Origin: Micromonospora sp. NBC_01740
GTDB taxonomy: Bacteria > Actinomycetota > Actinomycetes > Mycobacteriales > Micromonosporaceae
Direction: 5' to 3'
Length of the DNA stretch: 64,000 nucleotides
NCBI RefSeq assembly: GCF_035920365.1
Contig: NZ_CP109150.1
Coordinates: forward strand, 6,634,001 to 6,698,000
Position 1 is the first letter of the stretch, and the number at the start of each line of letters is the position of its first letter. The notes beneath the pieces were generated by a model that saw only the letters and a program-made list of their open reading frames with translations, was not told where the DNA came from and did no database searches. The position numbers and the translations under genes are program-made. This document shows, one piece after another, positions 664 through 43,054 of the stretch.

Positions 664-1842
664 ATGACGGACAGGCTGAGTGAACTCACCGCCGCAGGCG
701 TGGCGGTCTGGCTCGACGACCTTTCCCGGGTACGGCTGTCCTCCGGCGGGCTGGACCAGCTCCGCCGGGAGAAGCACGTGGCCGGGGTGACCACCAACCC
801 GACGATCTTCGCCAAGGCGCTGAGCGACGCCGACGAGTACGACTGGCAGCTGCGCGACCTCGCCTCCCGTGGGGTGGAGGTCGAGGAGGCCGTACGGATG
901 CTCACCACGTACGACGTGCGGTGGGCGTGCGACGTGATGCGCCCGTCGTACGAGGGCAGCGGCGGGGTCGACGGCCGGGTCTCCATCGAGGTGGACCCGC
1001 GGCTGGCCCACGAGACCGACAGGACCGTCGCCGAGGCCAAGGCGCTGTGGTGGCTGGTCGACCGGCCGAACCTCTTCATCAAGATCCCGGCCACCGAGGC
1101 CGGCCTGCCGGCGATCACCGCCACCCTGGCGGAGGGGATCAGCGTCAACGTCACGCTGATCTTCGGGCTGGACCGCTACTCGCAGGTGATGGAGGCCTTC
1201 CTGGCCGGCCTGGAGCAGGCGAAGGCGAACGGGCACGACCTGTCGAAGATCGGGTCGGTCGCGTCGTTCTTCGTCTCCCGCGTCGACAGCGAGGTCGACA
1301 AGCGGCTGGAGAAGCTCGGCTCCGACGAGGCCAAGGCGCTGCGCGGCAAGGCCGCCGTCGCCAACGCCAAGCTCGCGTACGAGCGCTATGGCGAGGTGTT
1401 CTCCTCCGACCGGTGGCAGGCGCTCGCCGACGCCGGCGCCCACCCGCAGCGGCCGCTGTGGGCCTCCACCTCGACCAAGAACCCGGACTACCGGGACGTC
1501 ATCTACGTCGAGGAGCTGATCGCCCCCGGCACGGTCAACACCATGCCGGAGCCGGTCGTGCACGCGTACGCCGACCACGGCGAGACCCGCGGCGACACCA
1601 TCACCGGTTCGTACGACGAGGCCCGCAAGGCCTTCGCGGACCTGGAGTCGGTCGGGATCGACATGGCCGACGTCATCGAGACCCTGGAGCGCGAGGGCGT
1701 GGAGAAGTTCGAGGCGAGCTGGCAGGAACTGCTCGACGGCGTCCGCAAGTCGCTGGCGGCCGCGGGCCGCGGCGCCGGCAACCCGAGCGACGCCGCGAAG
1801 GACAACGCGCAGGCCGCGCAGCAGTCGGGAGGAAACGCGTGA
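664..1842 (+). CDS. tal: Transaldolase
   Basis: Transaldolase transfers a dihydroxyacetone unit from sedoheptulose 7-phosphate to glyceraldehyde 3-phosphate through a Schiff-base lysine. The signature [12 protein letters not shown] is near residue 41 and the catalytic lysine lies in FIKIPAT at about residue 140. The protein is about 392 residues, the long actinobacterial type, and ends in a polar Ala/Gln-rich tail that is probably disordered. I chose the ATG at 664 because GGGGAG (648-653) lies 10 bases upstream; a GTG at 655 would leave almost no spacing. The TGA stop overlaps the GTG of a short bridging ORF (GTGA at 1839-1842) that leads to pgi. Part of the pentose phosphate operon tkt-tal-pgi-zwf-opcA-pgl. 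Confidence 0.96.
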
Positions 1843-1922
1843 GCGAGCGTAGCGAGCGAACCATCAGGCTCAGCAGTGCGGCGCCTCGCGCCGCCGCCGA
1901 GCGGAGCGAGGTGGCGGCGTGA
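1839..1922 (+). repeat. Bridging mini-ORF element A between tal and pgi (84 bp)
   Basis: An 84-base stretch with GAGCGAGCGTAGCGAGCG at its left end and GCGGAGCGAGGTGGCGGCGTGA at its right. It can be read as a 27-residue peptide beginning [10 protein letters not shown]. Its GTG overlaps the tal stop (GTGA 1839-1842) and its TGA overlaps the pgi start (GTGA 1919-1922). The direct repeat GCGTGAG[C/T]GA flanks it. Its right end carries the GGAG/GAGG-type ribosome-binding site for pgi. Whether the peptide has any function is unknown; the arrangement looks like translational coupling. See the findings for related copies. Confidence 0.7.
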
Positions 1923-3568
1923 GTGATCTGCTCAACGGCGCGGTCGAGGCCGCCGCCGGGCTCTCCGTGCACGGGGCCGACGCCGTCGACAAGTCGGCCC
2001 CCGCCTCCACCCGGGACGCGCTGGTGAACGCCGGCACGCCGGGCAAGCTGGCCGCGAAGGACCCGACCCTGTGGGGTCCGGACGCCGAGGCGGAGGCGAA
2101 GATCCGCCTCGGCTGGGTGGACACCCACCTGCGCAGCCGGGAACTGCTGCCCCAGCTCGCCGAGCTGAAGGCGGAGCTGGCCGACCTGGACCACGTGGTG
2201 CTCGCCGGGATGGGCGGCTCGTCGCTGGCCCCCGAGGTCATCGCCCGCACCCTGGGCAAGCAGCTGACGGTGCTCGACACCACCGACCCGGGGCAGATCC
2301 GGGCGGCGCTGGCCGATCGGCTGGAGCGCACCGTGGTCGTGGTGGCCAGCAAGTCCGGTTCGACGGTCGAGACCGACAGCCACCGCCGGGCGTACTGGCA
2401 GGCGTTCCTCGACGCGGGGATGACCGAGGCGGAGGCCGGCCGGCACTTCGTCGTCGTCACCGACCCCGGCTCGCCGCTGGAGGCCACCGCCGCCGAGATG
2501 GGTGCCTTCACCGTACTCGCCGACCCGAACGTGGGCGGCCGGTATGCGGCGCTGACCGCGTTCGGGCTGGTCCCGTCGGCGCTGGCCGGCGTCGAGGTGG
2601 CCGAGCTGCTCGACGAGGCCGACGCGCTGGCGCGGTCGCTGGGCGGGGACCGCGACAACCCGGCCCTGGCGCTCGGCGCGGCCCTCGGGGCGGCGGCCAC
2701 CATGGGCCGGGACAAGGTCGCCCTGATCTCCGACGGCACCGGCATCGAGGGCCTCGGCGACTGGGCCGAGCAGCTGATCGCCGAGTCCACCGGCAAGGCC
2801 GGGGTCGGCATCCTGCCGGTCGTCGTGGAGTCGCCGCAGAGTCCCGGCGCCGCCGGCGACGACGTGCTCACCGTGACCTACGGCGGCGCGCTGCCCGCCG
2901 GCGCCGTCCCCGGCGGGGGCGCCGACGCCGACGTGGCCGTCAACGGCCCGCTCGGCGCGCACTTCCTCGCCTGGGAGTACGCCACCGCGATCGCCGGCGT
3001 GGTGCTCGGCATCGACCCGTTCAACCAGCCCAACGTCACCGAGTCCAAGGAGAACACGAACCGGATCCTCGACTCCGGTCCGCCGGCCGAGACGCCGTCG
3101 TTCACCGAGGGCGCGATCGAGGTGTACGCGCCGCAGGGCGCCCCCGGCGACCTGGCCGGCGTGCTCCGCCAGCTCGTCGACGCGACGGGCGACGACGGCT
3201 ACCTCGCGGTGATGGCGTACCTCGACCGGTTCGCCGACGCCGACGCGGCCCGGCTGCGGCCGCTGCTGGCCGGTGCCGCCGGCCGGCCGGTCACCTTCGG
3301 GTGGGGCCCGCGCTTCCTGCACTCCACCGGCCAGTACCACAAGGGCGGTCCGCAGGTCGGCAGCTACCTCCAGCTCACCGGCGCGGTCGTCGACGACCTG
3401 CCGGTGCCGGGCAGGCCCTACACCTTCGGGCAGTTGCAGGCGGCGCAGGCCACCGGCGACCGGCAGGCCCTGGCCGAGCGGAAGCGCCCGGTGGTCCGGC
3501 TGCACCTGACCGACCGGTCGGCGGGCGTGGCCCAGCTGCTCGATGCCGTCGGGGCGTTGCGGGCGTGA
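1919..3568 (+). CDS. pgi: Glucose-6-phosphate isomerase
   Basis: Interconverts glucose 6-phosphate and fructose 6-phosphate, joining glycolysis to the pentose phosphate genes around it. The 549-residue protein has two SIS sugar-isomerase domains: an early phosphate-binding segment ([13 protein letters not shown] near residue 100, [13 protein letters not shown] near residue 140) and later NQPNVTESK and a C-terminal STGQYHKGG segment that carries the lysine of the active site. The GTG at 1919 overlaps the stop of the upstream bridging ORF as GTGA. The length is typical of the actinobacterial form. The stop (TGA 3566-3568) is again part of a GTGA overlap leading into the zwf frame. Confidence 0.95.
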
Positions 3569-3609
3569 CGATGAGGACCGTGGATGACGCGGAGCGAGGA
3601 GGCGGCGTG
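3565..3609 (+). repeat. Remnant bridging element B between pgi and zwf
   Basis: This junction has GTGA at 3565-3568 (pgi stop) and its last bases, GCGGAGCGAGGAGGCGGCGTGA, match the right end of element A at 21 of 22 positions. Here the intervening 42 bases are in frame with zwf, so the mini-ORF would be fused to zwf instead of ending in a second overlap. It looks like a shortened copy of the same repeat family. Confidence 0.5.
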
Positions 3610-5121
3610 AACCCGCTGCGCGACCCGCAGGACCGCCGGCTGCCGAGGATCCCGGAGCCGTGCGCTCTGGTGATCTTCGGCGTCACCGGTGACCTGGCCC
3701 GCAAGAAGCTCCTGCCGGCCGTGTACGACCTGGCGAACCGAGGGCTGCTGCCCCCGGGCTTCGCCGTGCTCGGCTTCGCCCGCCGGGACTGGGGCGACGG
3801 GGACTTCGAGTCGCTCGCCCACGAGGCCGCCAAGAAGCACGCCCGCACCCCCTGGCGGGAGGAGGTGTGGGCGCGGCTGGTGGGCAACATCAAGTTCGTC
3901 GGCGGCTCGTTCGACGACGACGCCGCGTTCGACCACCTCTCCGAGATGCTGGACGAGCTGCGCCAGACGCACGGGATCCCGGGCAACGCCGCCTTCTACT
4001 TCTCCATCCCCCCGGCGGCGTTCCCCGTGGTCCTCAAGCAGCTGGCCCGCACCGGGATGGCTGACAACGCCAAGTCCGGCGGCTGGCGCCGGGTGGTGGT
4101 GGAGAAGCCGTTCGGGCACGACCTGCCCTCGGCGAAGGCGCTCAACGACCTGGTCGACGACGTCTTCACCCGCGAGGACGTCTTCCGCATCGACCACTAC
4201 CTGGGCAAGGAGACCGTCCAGAACATCCTCGCCCTGCGGTTCGCCAACAACCTGTTCGAGCCGCTGTGGAACTCCAAGTACGTCGACTCCGTGCAGATCA
4301 CCATGGCCGAGGACGTCGGCATCGGCACCCGCGCCGGCTTCTACGACTCGGCCGGCGCGGCCCGCGACGTGTTCCAGAACCACCTGCTCCAACTGCTGGC
4401 GCTGGTGGCGATGGAGGAGCCGACGAGCTTCGACGCCGACGAGATCCGCACGGAGAAGCTCAAGGTGCTCCGGGCGATCACCCTGCCGAAGGACGTCGCC
4501 GAGGGCACCGTGCGCGGCCAGTACCTGCCCGGCTGGGTGGGGGGCGAGCGTGCCGTCGGGTACCTGGAGGAGGAGGGCGTCCCGGAGGACTCGACCACGG
4601 AGACCTACGTGGCCGTCCGGCTCGGCATCCAGAACCGCCGCTGGGCGGAGGTGCCCTTCTACATCCGGGCCGGCAAGCGGCTGCCGCGCCGCGTCACCGA
4701 GGTCGCCATCATGTTCAAGAGGGCGCCGCACCTGCCGTTCAACGAAGCCGACATGGAGTCGCTCGGCAACAACCAGCTCGTGATCCGGGTGCAGCCGGAC
4801 GAGGGCGTCGTGCTCAAGTTCGGTTCCAAGGTGCCCGGCACGACGATGGAGGTCCGCGACATCGCGATGGACTTCCAGTACGGCGAGGCGTTCACCGAGG
4901 CCAGCCCCGAGGCGTACGAGCGGCTCGTGCTGGACGTGCTGATCGGCGACCGTACCCTCTTCCCGGACGCCGCCGAGGTCGAGCAGAGCTGGCAGGTGGT
5001 GGACCCGCTGGAGCACGCGTGGGCGGGCACGAAGCCGGAGCCGTACCGGGCCGGCGAGTGGGGTCCCCGGGCCGCCGACGAGATGCTGGCCCGCGAGGGC
5101 CGGGCGTGGCGGCGGGCGTGA
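3607..5121 (+). CDS. zwf: Glucose-6-phosphate 1-dehydrogenase
   Basis: Oxidises glucose 6-phosphate to 6-phosphogluconolactone with NADP, the first step of the oxidative pentose phosphate branch. The N-terminal Rossmann motif [17 protein letters not shown] and the active-site motif RIDHYLGKE (about residue 195) are intact, and the beta+alpha C-terminal domain follows. About 504 residues, the normal length. I chose the GTG at 3607 with AGGAGG just upstream (3597-3602, short 4-base spacing). In-frame alternatives are ATG 3571 and GTG 3565, which would add 12-14 residues derived from the repeat element. The following opcA encodes its known partner in actinobacteria and cyanobacteria. Confidence 0.95.
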
Positions 5122-5216
5122 GCGCGAGGAGTGAGCCGGTTCTGCGAGCCCCGCAGTCGCGAACGAAGGCACGTGCCGTGAGCAGCCGCAGCGAGCAGAC
5201 CAGGAGGCTCCATTGA
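5118..5216 (+). repeat. Bridging mini-ORF element C between zwf and opcA (99 bp)
   Basis: Starts with GTGA over the zwf stop (5118-5121) and ends with TTGA over the opcA TTG start (5213-5216). The 32-residue reading frame begins MSARSEPVL and later repeats an SSRSEQ segment. It carries AGGAGG five bases before opcA. The string AACGAAGGCAC inside it recurs in element D before pgl. Confidence 0.65.
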
Positions 5217-6229
5217 TCGGCCTGTGGGACACCACCGGGAACGAGGTGGTCAAGGCGCTGGCCGCCGAGCGGCGCAGCGCGGGCGGGGTGGCCAGCGGCA
5301 TGGCGCTCACCCTGATCGTGGTGGTGGACGAGAAGCGGGTCCGCGAGGCGGAGGCGGCGGCGACGATAGCGGCCGCCGCCCACCCCTGCCGGCTGCTGGT
5401 GGTGGTCCGCACCGACGTGGAGCGCGAGCGCAACCGGCTGGACGCGGAGATCGTCGTCGGCGGCCGGCTCGGTCCGTGCGAGGCGGTGGTCACCCGGATG
5501 TACGGGCGGCTCGCCCTGCACGCGGAGTCGGTGGTGATGCCGCTGCTGGTGCCGGACGTGCCGGTGGTGACGTGGTGGCACGGCGAGCCGCCGGCCGAGA
5601 TCGCCACGGACTTCCTCGGCGTGGTGGCCGACCGGCGGATCACCGACTGCGCGCAGGCCGCCGACCCGATCGAGGCGATGCGCCAGCGGGCCCGGGACTA
5701 CGCGCCCGGCGACACCGACCTGGCGTGGACCCGGATCACCCCGTGGCGCACGCTCGTGGCGGGCGCGTTCGACACCACCCAGGCCAGGGTGACCGAGGCG
5801 ACCGTGGTGGCCCCGCCCACCGACCCGACCGCCGCGCTGATGCAGGGCTGGCTGGCCGCGCGGCTCGGCATCGAGCCGGTGTGGGAGCACACCGACGCGT
5901 CGCCGCGGATGCGGGAGGTGCAGCTGCGCTGCGCCAACGGCGACACGCTGACGCTGAGCCGCGACGACAGCGTGGCGACGTTCCGGCGTACCGGCCAGGA
6001 GGACCGGCAGCTGCCGCTCGTCCGCCGACCCCTCGGCGACGAGCTGGCCGAGGAACTGCGCCGGCTCGACGCCGACCAGGTGTACGCGGAGGCGCTGGGC
6101 ACGGCGGCCGGGCTGGCCGACCTCGACCAGCGCCCGCCGCAGCGGGTGCACGTCTGGAAGGACCCGGCCACGGCCCAGCGGGCCGAGGCGGGGGTCACCG
6201 CGCACGTGGGAACGAGCGCCGAGCACTGA
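5213..6229 (+). CDS. opcA: OpcA, assembly/allosteric protein of glucose-6-phosphate dehydrogenase
   Basis: OpcA binds and activates the Zwf tetramer and has no catalytic role of its own. The 338-residue product has the family features: the N-terminal GLWDTTGNEVVKAL, a central VTRMYGRLALHAESVVMPLL segment, the VTWWHGEPP motif, then the C-terminal half with AARLGIEPVWE. The TTG start at 5213 is set by AGGAGG (5202-5207) and overlaps the stop of the mini-ORF in element C. zwf-opcA-pgl order is standard for actinobacteria. The stop is followed by a further bridging element to pgl. Confidence 0.93.
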   Translation: MIGLWDTTGNEVVKALAAERRSAGGVASGMALTLIVVVDEKRVREAEAAATIAAAAHPCRLLVVVRTDVERERNRLDAEIVVGGRLGPCEAVVTRMYGRLALHAESVVMPLLVPDVPVVTWWHGEPPAEIATDFLGVVADRRITDCAQAADPIEAMRQRARDYAPGDTDLAWTRITPWRTLVAGAFDTTQARVTEATVVAPPTDPTAALMQGWLAARLGIEPVWEHTDASPRMREVQLRCANGDTLTLSRDDSVATFRRTGQEDRQLPLVRRPLGDELAEELRRLDADQVYAEALGTAAGLADLDQRPPQRVHVWKDPATAQRAEAGVTAHVGTSAEH

Positions 6230-6300
6230 GCGCCCGACTGCTCGGGGCACCACGAATGACCGGCCGCGCGGCGGCCGGAGAAACGAAGGCACACAGATGA
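6226..6300 (+). repeat. Bridging element D between opcA and pgl (75 bp)
   Basis: Begins CTGA over the opcA stop (6226-6229) and can be read as 24 codons (LSARLLGAPRM...) ending in a TGA that overlaps the pgl ATG as ATGA (6297-6300). CTG would be an unusual start, so coupling here is less certain; an internal ATG at 6256 is in the same frame. It shares AACGAAGGCAC with element C and carries GGAG and GAAGG upstream of pgl. Confidence 0.5.
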
Positions 6301-7067: not shown

Positions 7068-7070
7068 GGT

Positions 7071-7123
7071 GTGAGGAAGGGCCCCCTGTTGACGCACAGC
7101 GTCAGCAGGGGGCCCTTCCTCAC
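7071..7123. repeat. 53-bp palindromic intergenic repeat, likely two-way terminator
   Basis: Two 25-base arms (7071-7095 and 7099-7123) are inverted copies with one G-T-compatible mismatch, around a 3-base loop. The arms begin GTGAGGAAGGGCCCCCTG. It lies between the convergent genes pgl and rbpA, 3 bases past the pgl stop and 19 bases from the rbpA stop. From memory, palindromes built on AAGGGCCCC arms are frequent in Micromonospora genomes; copy number cannot be judged from this window. No T-tract follows on either strand. Confidence 0.8.
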
Positions 7124-7142
7124 ACCGGAGTGGGGTCGCCGC

Positions 7143-42176: not shown

Positions 42177-42974
42177 TCACTCCAGCAGGTGTGCCCGCAG
42201 CGCCGTCACCACGTCGTCGGTCACGCCGAGGCCGTCGCGCAGGTACGCCCCGAACGACCCGTGCACCCGGCGCACCTCCGCGTACGCGGCGTCCAGGTAC
42301 TCCTCGCGCACCTCCAGCACCGGGCGCACCGCCTCGACGTTCAGTTCCGGCATCCGCCGCCGCATCGCCTCCAGCAGGACCTCCCGCAGGCTCTCGGTCA
42401 GCCGGTTGTTCGCCAGGTAGTCCGCCCGGATCGCCGCCTCGTCCACGCCGAGCGCGCTGAGCAGCAGCACCGTCAACCAGCCGGTGCGGTCCTTGCCCGC
42501 CGAGCAGTGGTAGACCAGCGGCAGGTTCTCCGCCTGGGCGGCCAACCGCACCGCCGTGCCGAAGTTCGCCCGCGCCGACTCCCCGCTGACGAACCAGCGG
42601 TAGATCGCCGCCATCGCCGCCGGCGTGCCCTGCTCCGCCAGGCCCGCGTACGCGCCCAGGTCGTGCCCGAGCAGCACCGCCGAGACGTACGTGAAGACGG
42701 GGTGCTCGGCGTCGTGCACCGGCAGGTGCACCACCCGCGGCTGGCCGGTCAGCCGGTCCGGCGGGGCGACCGCCGTCTCCGAGTGGTCCCGCAGGTCGAC
42801 CACACAGGCCGGGCCGAGCTTGGCCAGCACCGGCAGGTCCTCATCGGTCAGCCGACCCAGCGCCGGCGTCCGGATCAGCGCCCCCGGGCGCACCCTCCGG
42901 CCGTCGGCGCCGACCAGGCCGCCGAGGTCCCGCGCGTTCGGCGCGCCCACCAGTTCCCATTCCCGCCCGCTCAT
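42177..42974 (-). CDS. Tyrosine-protein phosphatase, IphP-like
   Basis: A 265-residue phosphatase with the P-loop HCSAGKDRTG (catalytic Cys157, Arg163) and the family's N-terminal NARDLGGL, which marks the Y_phosphatase3/IphP-type proteins that act on phosphotyrosine and some phosphoinositides. The general acid would be the Asp in DLRDHSE. ATG 42974 overlaps the stop of a bridging mini-ORF as ATGA (42971-42974), with GGAG eight bases upstream. No signal peptide. Confidence 0.88.
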   Translation of the reverse strand: MSGREWELVGAPNARDLGGLVGADGRRVRPGALIRTPALGRLTDEDLPVLAKLGPACVVDLRDHSETAVAPPDRLTGQPRVVHLPVHDAEHPVFTYVSAVLLGHDLGAYAGLAEQGTPAAMAAIYRWFVSGESARANFGTAVRLAAQAENLPLVYHCSAGKDRTGWLTVLLLSALGVDEAAIRADYLANNRLTESLREVLLEAMRRRMPELNVEAVRPVLEVREEYLDAAYAEVRRVHGSFGAYLRDGLGVTDDVVTALRAHLLE

Positions 42975-43054
42975 GCCGGCGCTCCGCCGCGCCGCGTGCC
43001 GCCACGAGGCGCCACCGCCCCGCGCCCGTTGATCCGCTCACTCCGCTCGCTCAT
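42971..43054 (-). repeat. Bridging mini-ORF element E before the tyrosine phosphatase (84 bp)
   Basis: A second 84-base element of the type seen before pgi. It reads as a 27-residue peptide beginning MSERSERINGRG, starts at ATG 43054 behind GAAGGGGAGG, and ends with TGA overlapping the phosphatase ATG. The bases around its two ends are near-identical (GCCGGCATGAGCG[A/G]GCGG), like a duplicated target site. It matches element A in length and in its GAGCGAGCG-GAGTGAGCG left end. Confidence 0.7.

Follow-up and report, generated by a model that had tools for sequence, protein, structure and literature searches.

MIRUs (mycobacterial interspersed repetitive units) are the closest described systems to the repeats analyzed here. 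In the part of a 2025 review that treats them (PMC12548453), MIRUs appear to be mobile, to insert at start codons, and to couple an internal open reading frame (ORF) with a −4 spacing, an arrangement for which the review cites Supply 1997. A passage of PMC2734929 gives rnc-fpg spacers of 279–358 bp in some mycobacteria and of 1–54 bp in others. The same part of the review (PMC12548453) also describes coupling by RNA unfolding in natural gene pairs, where the upstream ribosome disrupts a structure over the downstream start. Here we analyze the gene junctions of tal-pgi-zwf-opcA-pgl in a window of 64,000 nucleotides (nt), bases 6634001–6698000 of the 7.3-Mb single-contig genome of a Micromonospora, the genus that gives its best opcA matches among named genomes; feature positions below count from the first base of this window. 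Two of these junctions carry inserts, one between tal and pgi (1839..1922, plus strand) and one between zwf and opcA (5118..5216, plus strand). Judging from sequence, the insert at tal/pgi and the left portion of that at zwf/opcA probably belong to two MIRU-like repeat families, I and II, that preserve the path of the ribosome from gene to gene.

The same arrangement is already described for mycobacterial MIRUs (PMC12548453). What is new is the existence of two MIRU-like families outside the MIRU-bearing genus, the evidence that their frame is kept, and a covarying hairpin that holds the next start codon in its 3′ arm. The computations made here show the repeat families, the filled and empty sites, the maintenance of frame, and the covariation of the hairpin.

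Mobility, translation of the mini-ORFs, and coupling we infer as follows. A copy would land at an NTGA, i.e., a start codon plus A that often also contains the stop of the preceding gene. The upstream stop would retain its NTG, which would now start the element's own frame of about 20–28 codons, and this frame would terminate at a TGA again overlapping the start of the next gene. The path from gene to mini-ORF to gene would be preserved as a chain of 4-nt overlaps, which tandem copies would extend. In family I, the final 39 nt would fold into a hairpin of 14 bp that carries a Shine-Dalgarno-like sequence close to its top and the start codon of the next gene within its stem. Such a hairpin would hide the start from free ribosomes; a ribosome translating the mini-ORF would open it and re-initiate, and the downstream gene would stay coupled.

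Distribution of Family I

The family I element at tal/pgi is an 84-nt mini-ORF, with its left end over the tal stop and its TGA over the GTG start of pgi. A search of its own genome with this element gives 14 places at E ≤ 2e-3, its own copy included, and the left-end pattern, with up to 2 mismatches allowed, has 15 matches there (0 for the reversed pattern). Fifteen copies from this genome, picked for recognizable left and right ends, were used to build a covariance model (R1). All 15 run from NTGA to NTGA, are multiples of three (84, 78, 75, or 66 nt), and are free of internal stops. At E ≤ 1e-3, R1 finds 24 copies in the genome, 9 of them beyond the 15 of the model. Copies of the family are 61–85 nt long, with some pairs 80 nt apart, and length is divisible by three in 20 of the 24. 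A gene, called by codon-position composition as sole basis (G+C by codon position, here as throughout), begins directly at the right-end NTG in 19 of the 24 copies, and a tandem copy stands there in 3. As for the remaining copies, the one at 379855 leads to a short frame of 52 codons and the one at 3746277 to no frame. For 15 of the 24, the TGA of the upstream gene falls precisely on position 2 of the element, and for 2 on position 6. The small repeat family at NTGA overlaps that a first-pass annotation of the window had proposed from sequence does exist as a dispersed family of 24 copies, and most copies lie at gene starts.

R1 detects family I in 101 of 150 sampled genomes of the window's taxonomic family, from 31 of 44 genera. 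In a phylum-wide sample, only 4 of 296 genomes match at E ≤ 1e-4: the genome itself, one of its own genus, and two of a genus from another family of the same order (g46), several copies of which share the 84-nt layout. Forty copies from 36 other genomes were taken from the top of the score list, which favors high scorers. The gene start adjoins the right end in 38 of these, in the orientation of the gene, and in the other 2 the copy is followed by a further copy-like mini-ORF, itself chained to a gene; the upstream stop is exactly at position 2 in 19. Copies from unrelated loci and different genera fit one model across 85 positions, with E values down to 1e-17. The tal/pgi insert is best read as a copy of a dispersed, apparently mobile short repeat family.

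Filled and Empty Junctions in Relatives

The junctions were compared in 80 fetched loci from Micromonospora, Salinispora, and close relatives, which are not phylogenetically independent (L122 was left out at all junctions for a break in the zwf frame, L151 at tal/pgi, and L132, L137, L139, and L154 at pgi/zwf). We speak of a chain where a run of 4-nt NTGA overlaps leads from the upstream stop through one or more mini-ORFs to the downstream start. Among the 79 loci scored at zwf/opcA, 25 are empty, with a bare −4 overlap, and 54 are filled; orthologous junctions without the element, a comparison that had been suggested from the start, do show the plain overlap. A chain joins the zwf stop to the opcA start in 53 of the 54 filled loci, the exception being L179, with a TAA stop. 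The filled spacers come in 17 lengths; 16 of these keep the frame with one mini-ORF, and the remaining one (L159) does so with two that chain. The hand-calculated chance of at least 16 of 17 lengths falling in the right frame is about 3e-7 for independent lengths, a figure weakened by the relatedness of the loci.

At tal/pgi, 68 loci were scored, 20 empty and 48 filled, and 36 of the filled ones chain. The filled sites comprise 17 with family I, 2 with family II, and 29 with other spacers. Spacers bearing the motif of either family chain in 18 of 18 cases, after a one-base correction of the start at L157, and double inserts such as those of L133 and L154 do so by way of two mini-ORFs. For spacers lacking a motif, the count is 19 of 30, against a shuffle expectation of 0.44, and one of these, L136, contains a family I copy cut down to 45 nt. 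A quick tree built from opcA DNA, in which 24 of 77 inner branches have good support, requires at least 14 switches between the empty state and family I at tal/pgi; at zwf/opcA, it requires at least 12 switches between empty and filled, and 32 changes of spacer length. The two repeat-bearing junctions, tal/pgi and zwf/opcA, are real and go beyond chance. In seven loci (L170, L174, L175, L178, L179, L184, and L188), a compact palindromic tal/pgi spacer ending in GTGGGTGA takes the place of the element.

The same pattern of filled and empty sites is repeated at a further junction. The gene downstream of the family I copy at 3955453, which by reading and without a family search we take to be RibBA-like, was looked up in 61 genomes of the genus (own included), and the 30 loci returned were read. 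The junction is filled in 7 of the 30, by chains of 75 (own), 84, 84, 84, 150, and 54 nt, and of 84 nt in L249. The remaining 23 each have an ATG overlapping the upstream stop, and this ATG directly starts the downstream frame.

These lengths bear on a rather unlikely alternative, namely that the inserts are neutral interspersed repeats whose copies persist at gene starts alone, insertions in other places being lost. Their in-frame lengths would then go back to a handful of master copies (84, 75, or 63 nt), and coupling would be unimportant. Many full-length copies do have lengths in common by descent, a few copies are out of frame, and the peptide of the mini-ORF is poorly conserved. Spacers shuffled at kept length also chain, in 90% of the trials at zwf/opcA and in 76% of those for motif-bearing tal/pgi spacers; hence, the evidence rests on spacer lengths and not on missing stops. 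The absence of stops was set aside as evidence, having little power at this G+C. Contrary to the neutral reading, shortened or enlarged copies are still multiples of three (42, 45, 66, 72, and 81 nt at tal/pgi; 54 and 150 nt at ribBA), all 17 lengths at zwf/opcA resolve into one mini-ORF or two chained ones, and the adjacent opcA/pgl spacer varies in length without regard to frame.

In the 57 copies of exactly 84 nt (a set that excludes own copies of other lengths), none has an in-frame internal stop, with 14 and 30 copies having stops in the other two frames. The ratio of nonsynonymous to synonymous divergence (dN/dS) is 0.66 for codons 2–15, versus 1.0 and 0.87 in the shifted frames, and the variable base of GAGCGNAGCGAG falls on a third codon position at both of its occurrences in family I. 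The signal of selection on the peptide is weak; being translated seems to count for more than the peptide that results.

Several observations weigh against repeats that preserve the ribosome path. The expected divisibility by three holds for most of the 24 own copies but fails in four (85, 85, 82, and 61 nt); a family I copy at opcA/pgl in L149 is of 83 nt and does not chain; and some family II units of 64 nt lack a terminal stop and are read in frame into the next unit or gene. In 21 of the 40 copies from other genomes, no upstream stop is shown at the left end. The peptide appears only weakly constrained, and in codons 16–27, the hairpin part, dN/dS is 0.89 versus 1.40 and 0.79 in the shifted frames, one of which is therefore lower. 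No transposase was found for these families, and the data do not separate target preference from survivor bias. As for the proposal that the elements keep the genes coupled, the part that stands is that the mini-ORF frame is mostly kept at the repeat-bearing junctions; it does not extend to opcA/pgl.

A Hairpin over the Next Start Codon

Two subtypes of family I copies suggested a stem of 14 bp. In the window (plus strand), its 5′ arm lies at 1885..1898, the loop GAGCGGAGCGA, with the core GAGCGNAGCGA that also occurs in MIRU, at 1899..1909, and its 3′ arm at 1910..1923; the 3′ arm holds the pgi start codon (1919–1921) and the stop of the mini-ORF (1920–1922). Both arms are supported by covariation and folding. 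In the 15 own copies, 87% of the cells pair, with 16 double-change cells versus 6.5 in shuffles. In 38 distinct copies from other genomes, not used to derive the stem (L229, of 82 nt with an extra base, was left out of the count), 88% of the cells pair, and double changes occur in 9 of the 14 pairs, a number reached by 1 of 500 shuffles. There are 51 double-change cells in this set, versus 14.9 in shuffles, and the covariation is 0.289, versus 0.114 in shuffles (0 of 500 reach it) and 0.02–0.09 for slid versions of the stem; the copies were found with a model that scores this very hairpin, which favors paired copies and tells against these figures. When the 57 copies are folded, the start codon is paired with a probability of 0.92 (0.58 for shuffles), and the mean folding energy of the final 39 nt is −23 kcal/mol. 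A less favorable result is that the energy of the whole element is only mildly below that of shuffles: z averages −1.2, lies below −2 in 15 of 57 copies, and reaches +3.1 at most. As modeled, the hairpin would block free initiation at the downstream start, and its covariation suggests a lock on the start codon that is opened by the ribosome translating the mini-ORF.

Family II Units and Arrays

The left part of 5118–5216 matches 67 places at E ≤ 1, its own included, and many of these are in tandem arrays. Family II is present in 73 of the 150 family genomes and in 25 of the 44 genera. Array spacing is 56–66 nt, and a unit of 63 nt encodes about VSARSEPxLRAPQSRTxxxx followed by a stop. Twenty fetched regions, which hold 21 arrays and are a subset of all matching places, were inspected. 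The chain of 4-nt overlaps reaches the frame of the downstream gene in 18 of the 21, two of which (L078 and L085) are ambiguous, as the called upstream frame crosses part or all of the array. The three that do not chain end in TAG (L082), meet CTGATGA (L073), or have no call of an upstream frame (L072). An automatic tally, giving 24 of 48 units as multiples of three, was not used, since its right-end calls are often wrong.

In the window, the family II unit lies at 5118..5181 (plus strand; 60-nt period, GTGA to GTGA) and is followed at 5178..5216 (plus strand) by a 39-nt mini-ORF encoding VSSRSEQTRRLH and a stop. Because the unit is of the 64-nt run-on kind and contributes 60 nt, 5118–5216 reads as a single frame of 33 codons. 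A gap of 31 nt corresponding to 5178–5216 is present in 22 of the 80 relatives, and this part is probably an older bridging mini-ORF. The locus with the best opcA match (L118, 96%) has two units versus one in the window. In L069 and L071 the last unit is fused in frame to the gene, which lends some support, on sequence grounds, to the earlier suggestion that N-terminal extensions may be traces of such elements.

The arrays bear on an explanation without any mobile element, in which the NTGA and ribosome-binding region was duplicated locally at each junction and converged on GAGCGNAGCGA as a good ribosome-binding context. It would agree with L075 (own genome, 69.8–70.1 kb), where the tandem duplication includes host flank, and with the left and right flanks of arrays, which, in a check for target-site duplication, resemble each other slightly more than by chance (3.5 versus 3.0 of 8 bases by permutation, p 0.02). 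For family I, local duplication is already unlikely, and the single model that fits across loci and genera includes a left half that is distant from the ribosome-binding site. We regard this explanation as very improbable overall, compared with the dispersal of repeats.

Within L075, four units stand in a row with a period that includes 11 nt of host sequence, and the chained mini-ORFs are of 66, 66, 66, and 63 nt. At L079 and L080, which lie far apart in the own genome (near 4866 kb and near 64 kb), the same family II copy stands between flanks that are identical over the printed stretch, which suggests a duplicated segment.

Comparison with MIRUs and Other Systems

A MIRU core pattern, searched with up to 1 mismatch, occurs in 14 of 249 genomes of the order, all from one genus, which we take to be Mycobacterium. 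It is absent from all 42 genomes of the window's family that were searched in this way (0 of 42), and at E ≤ 1e-4 the phylum sample gives no R1 match in the MIRU-bearing genus. Twenty loci with the MIRU core were read: the upstream gene chains through a mini-ORF of 42–57 nt to the next gene in 6, and there is a direct in-frame run in 2; when only the frame over the core is considered, 11 of the 20 have an NTGA-to-NTGA mini-ORF of 42–60 nt.

Families I and II resemble MIRUs in being short interspersed units of about 40–100 bp, some in tandem, and family I also in its insertion at the start codon in the direction of the gene. The internal ORF forms an NTGA overlap with the neighboring start, and in many copies it also overlaps the stop of the gene before. 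The site is empty in relatives at tal/pgi, zwf/opcA, and ribBA. By this analogy of layout, the two families would work as MIRUs do. The differences lie in the sequence, of which the 11-nt core GAGCGNAGCGA alone is common to both; in the range, which, rather than being restricted to Mycobacterium, covers the window's family and a genus elsewhere in the same order; in the additional SERSER left half of family I; and in the hairpin, as the stem of family I includes the next start, whereas three folded MIRU units have a hairpin with the core in the loop and the start outside the stem. An argument for common descent from the core being in one reading frame was ruled out: in the 16 MIRU loci with a frame overlapping GAGCGNAGCGA, of which L280 and L292 are one array, the core is in frame 0 in 9, in frame 1 in 2, and in frame 2 in 5. 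Lacking a fixed frame in MIRU, the core makes a weaker case for common descent. Families I and II may still be distant relatives of MIRU. More tentatively, one could envisage an order-wide superfamily of mobile "ribosome relay" cassettes, comprising families I and II, the 84-nt copies of g46, and MIRU, each with a mini-ORF and NTGA overlaps, and with a hairpin having a GAGCG..AGCGA loop in family I, g46, and MIRU. The family I hairpin would lock the next start, so that after insertion it could be used only by a ribosome arriving through the element, making insertion nearly silent in operons and sparing the element from selection.

Coupling by RNA unfolding has in common with family I a structure over the downstream start, predicted in our case. 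The known structures belong to one gene pair, whereas here a dispersed repeat bundles both overlaps with the mini-ORF and the hairpin. Like the units described here, small palindromic repeats such as REP/RAYT are short, dispersed, and hairpin-forming; our units differ in keeping frame, in sitting at start codons, and in lacking a matching pattern of Y1 transposases. One might think of REP-like elements whose mobility depends on a Y1 transposase (IS200/RAYT type) recognizing the hairpin and a tetranucleotide target, a layout that the subterminal hairpin and fixed NTGA site resemble in general terms. This seems most doubtful: PF01797 is found in 41 of the 150 family genomes and is missing from some copy-rich ones (G107, with 24 copies, and G141 and G144, with 14 each), and the own genome has one partial match. 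A Y1 transposase as driver was hence left unsupported, since the occurrence of PF01797 does not follow the copy-rich genomes.

We found no prior description of such repeats in Micromonospora, Nocardia, or other actinobacteria in the open-access literature searched. MIRU-type occupation of translational overlaps would extend beyond mycobacteria, and Micromonospora and Salinispora offer dozens of natural filled and empty pairs for the study of coupling and re-initiation. The repeats may also provide natural portable coupling parts. For annotation, they are a warning that mini-ORFs and in-frame units may pass for N-terminal extensions.

The Remaining Junctions and Neighboring Features

The first-pass annotation described the sequence at 1839–1922, 3565–3609, 5118–5216, and 6226–6300 correctly, but its claim of one element at every junction had to be abandoned: a single family at all four is ruled out by the presence of two families, a chance frame at opcA/pgl, and an old spacer at pgi/zwf. 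The TGAGCG left ends that it took as common turn out to be a mixture of unrelated things. The AACGAAGGCAC that it saw in two elements was ruled out as a common part, being the end of the family II unit at zwf/opcA and an old pgl leader at opcA/pgl, where 40 of 79 relatives have CGAAGGCR within the final 30 nt.

The insert at pgi/zwf (3565..3609, plus strand) is an old in-frame spacer and was not scored as an element. It begins with a GTG that overlaps the stop of pgi and shares the reading frame of zwf, and a gap of the same length, 38 nt, is found in 24 of 67 relatives. None of the relatives is empty at this junction; most have a direct in-frame extension of zwf, and 61 of 67 chain. The last 22 nt of the spacer resemble the family I element (E 0.006). 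In three related strains (L132, L137, and L139), pgi has no stop and continues in frame through the spacer into zwf, forming a joint pgi-zwf frame.

At opcA/pgl (6226..6300, plus strand), the spacer has a single copy in the own genome (the next best match has E 0.04). Spacer lengths in the 80 relatives are spread over the three frames (16, 34, and 24), with 6 empty. A bridging frame exists in 15 of 74 filled relatives if any NTG may start it, as the CTG of the window needs, and a chain with an ATG, GTG, or TTG start in 4 of 73, which serves as a negative control. As the lengths hit all three frames and a bridging frame is rare in relatives, the mini-ORF with its CTG start is read as a product of chance and not as an element.

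A second family I copy in the window lies before another gene on the minus strand (42970..43054) and consists of an 84-nt mini-ORF, encoding MSERSERINGRGAVAPRGGTRRGGAPA and a stop, plus one base. Directly after pgl, at 7068–7126, there is a long, near-perfect inverted repeat (GGTGTGAGGAAGGGCCCCCTG ... CAGGGGGCCCTTCCTCACACC) that, read from its sequence, is terminator-like.

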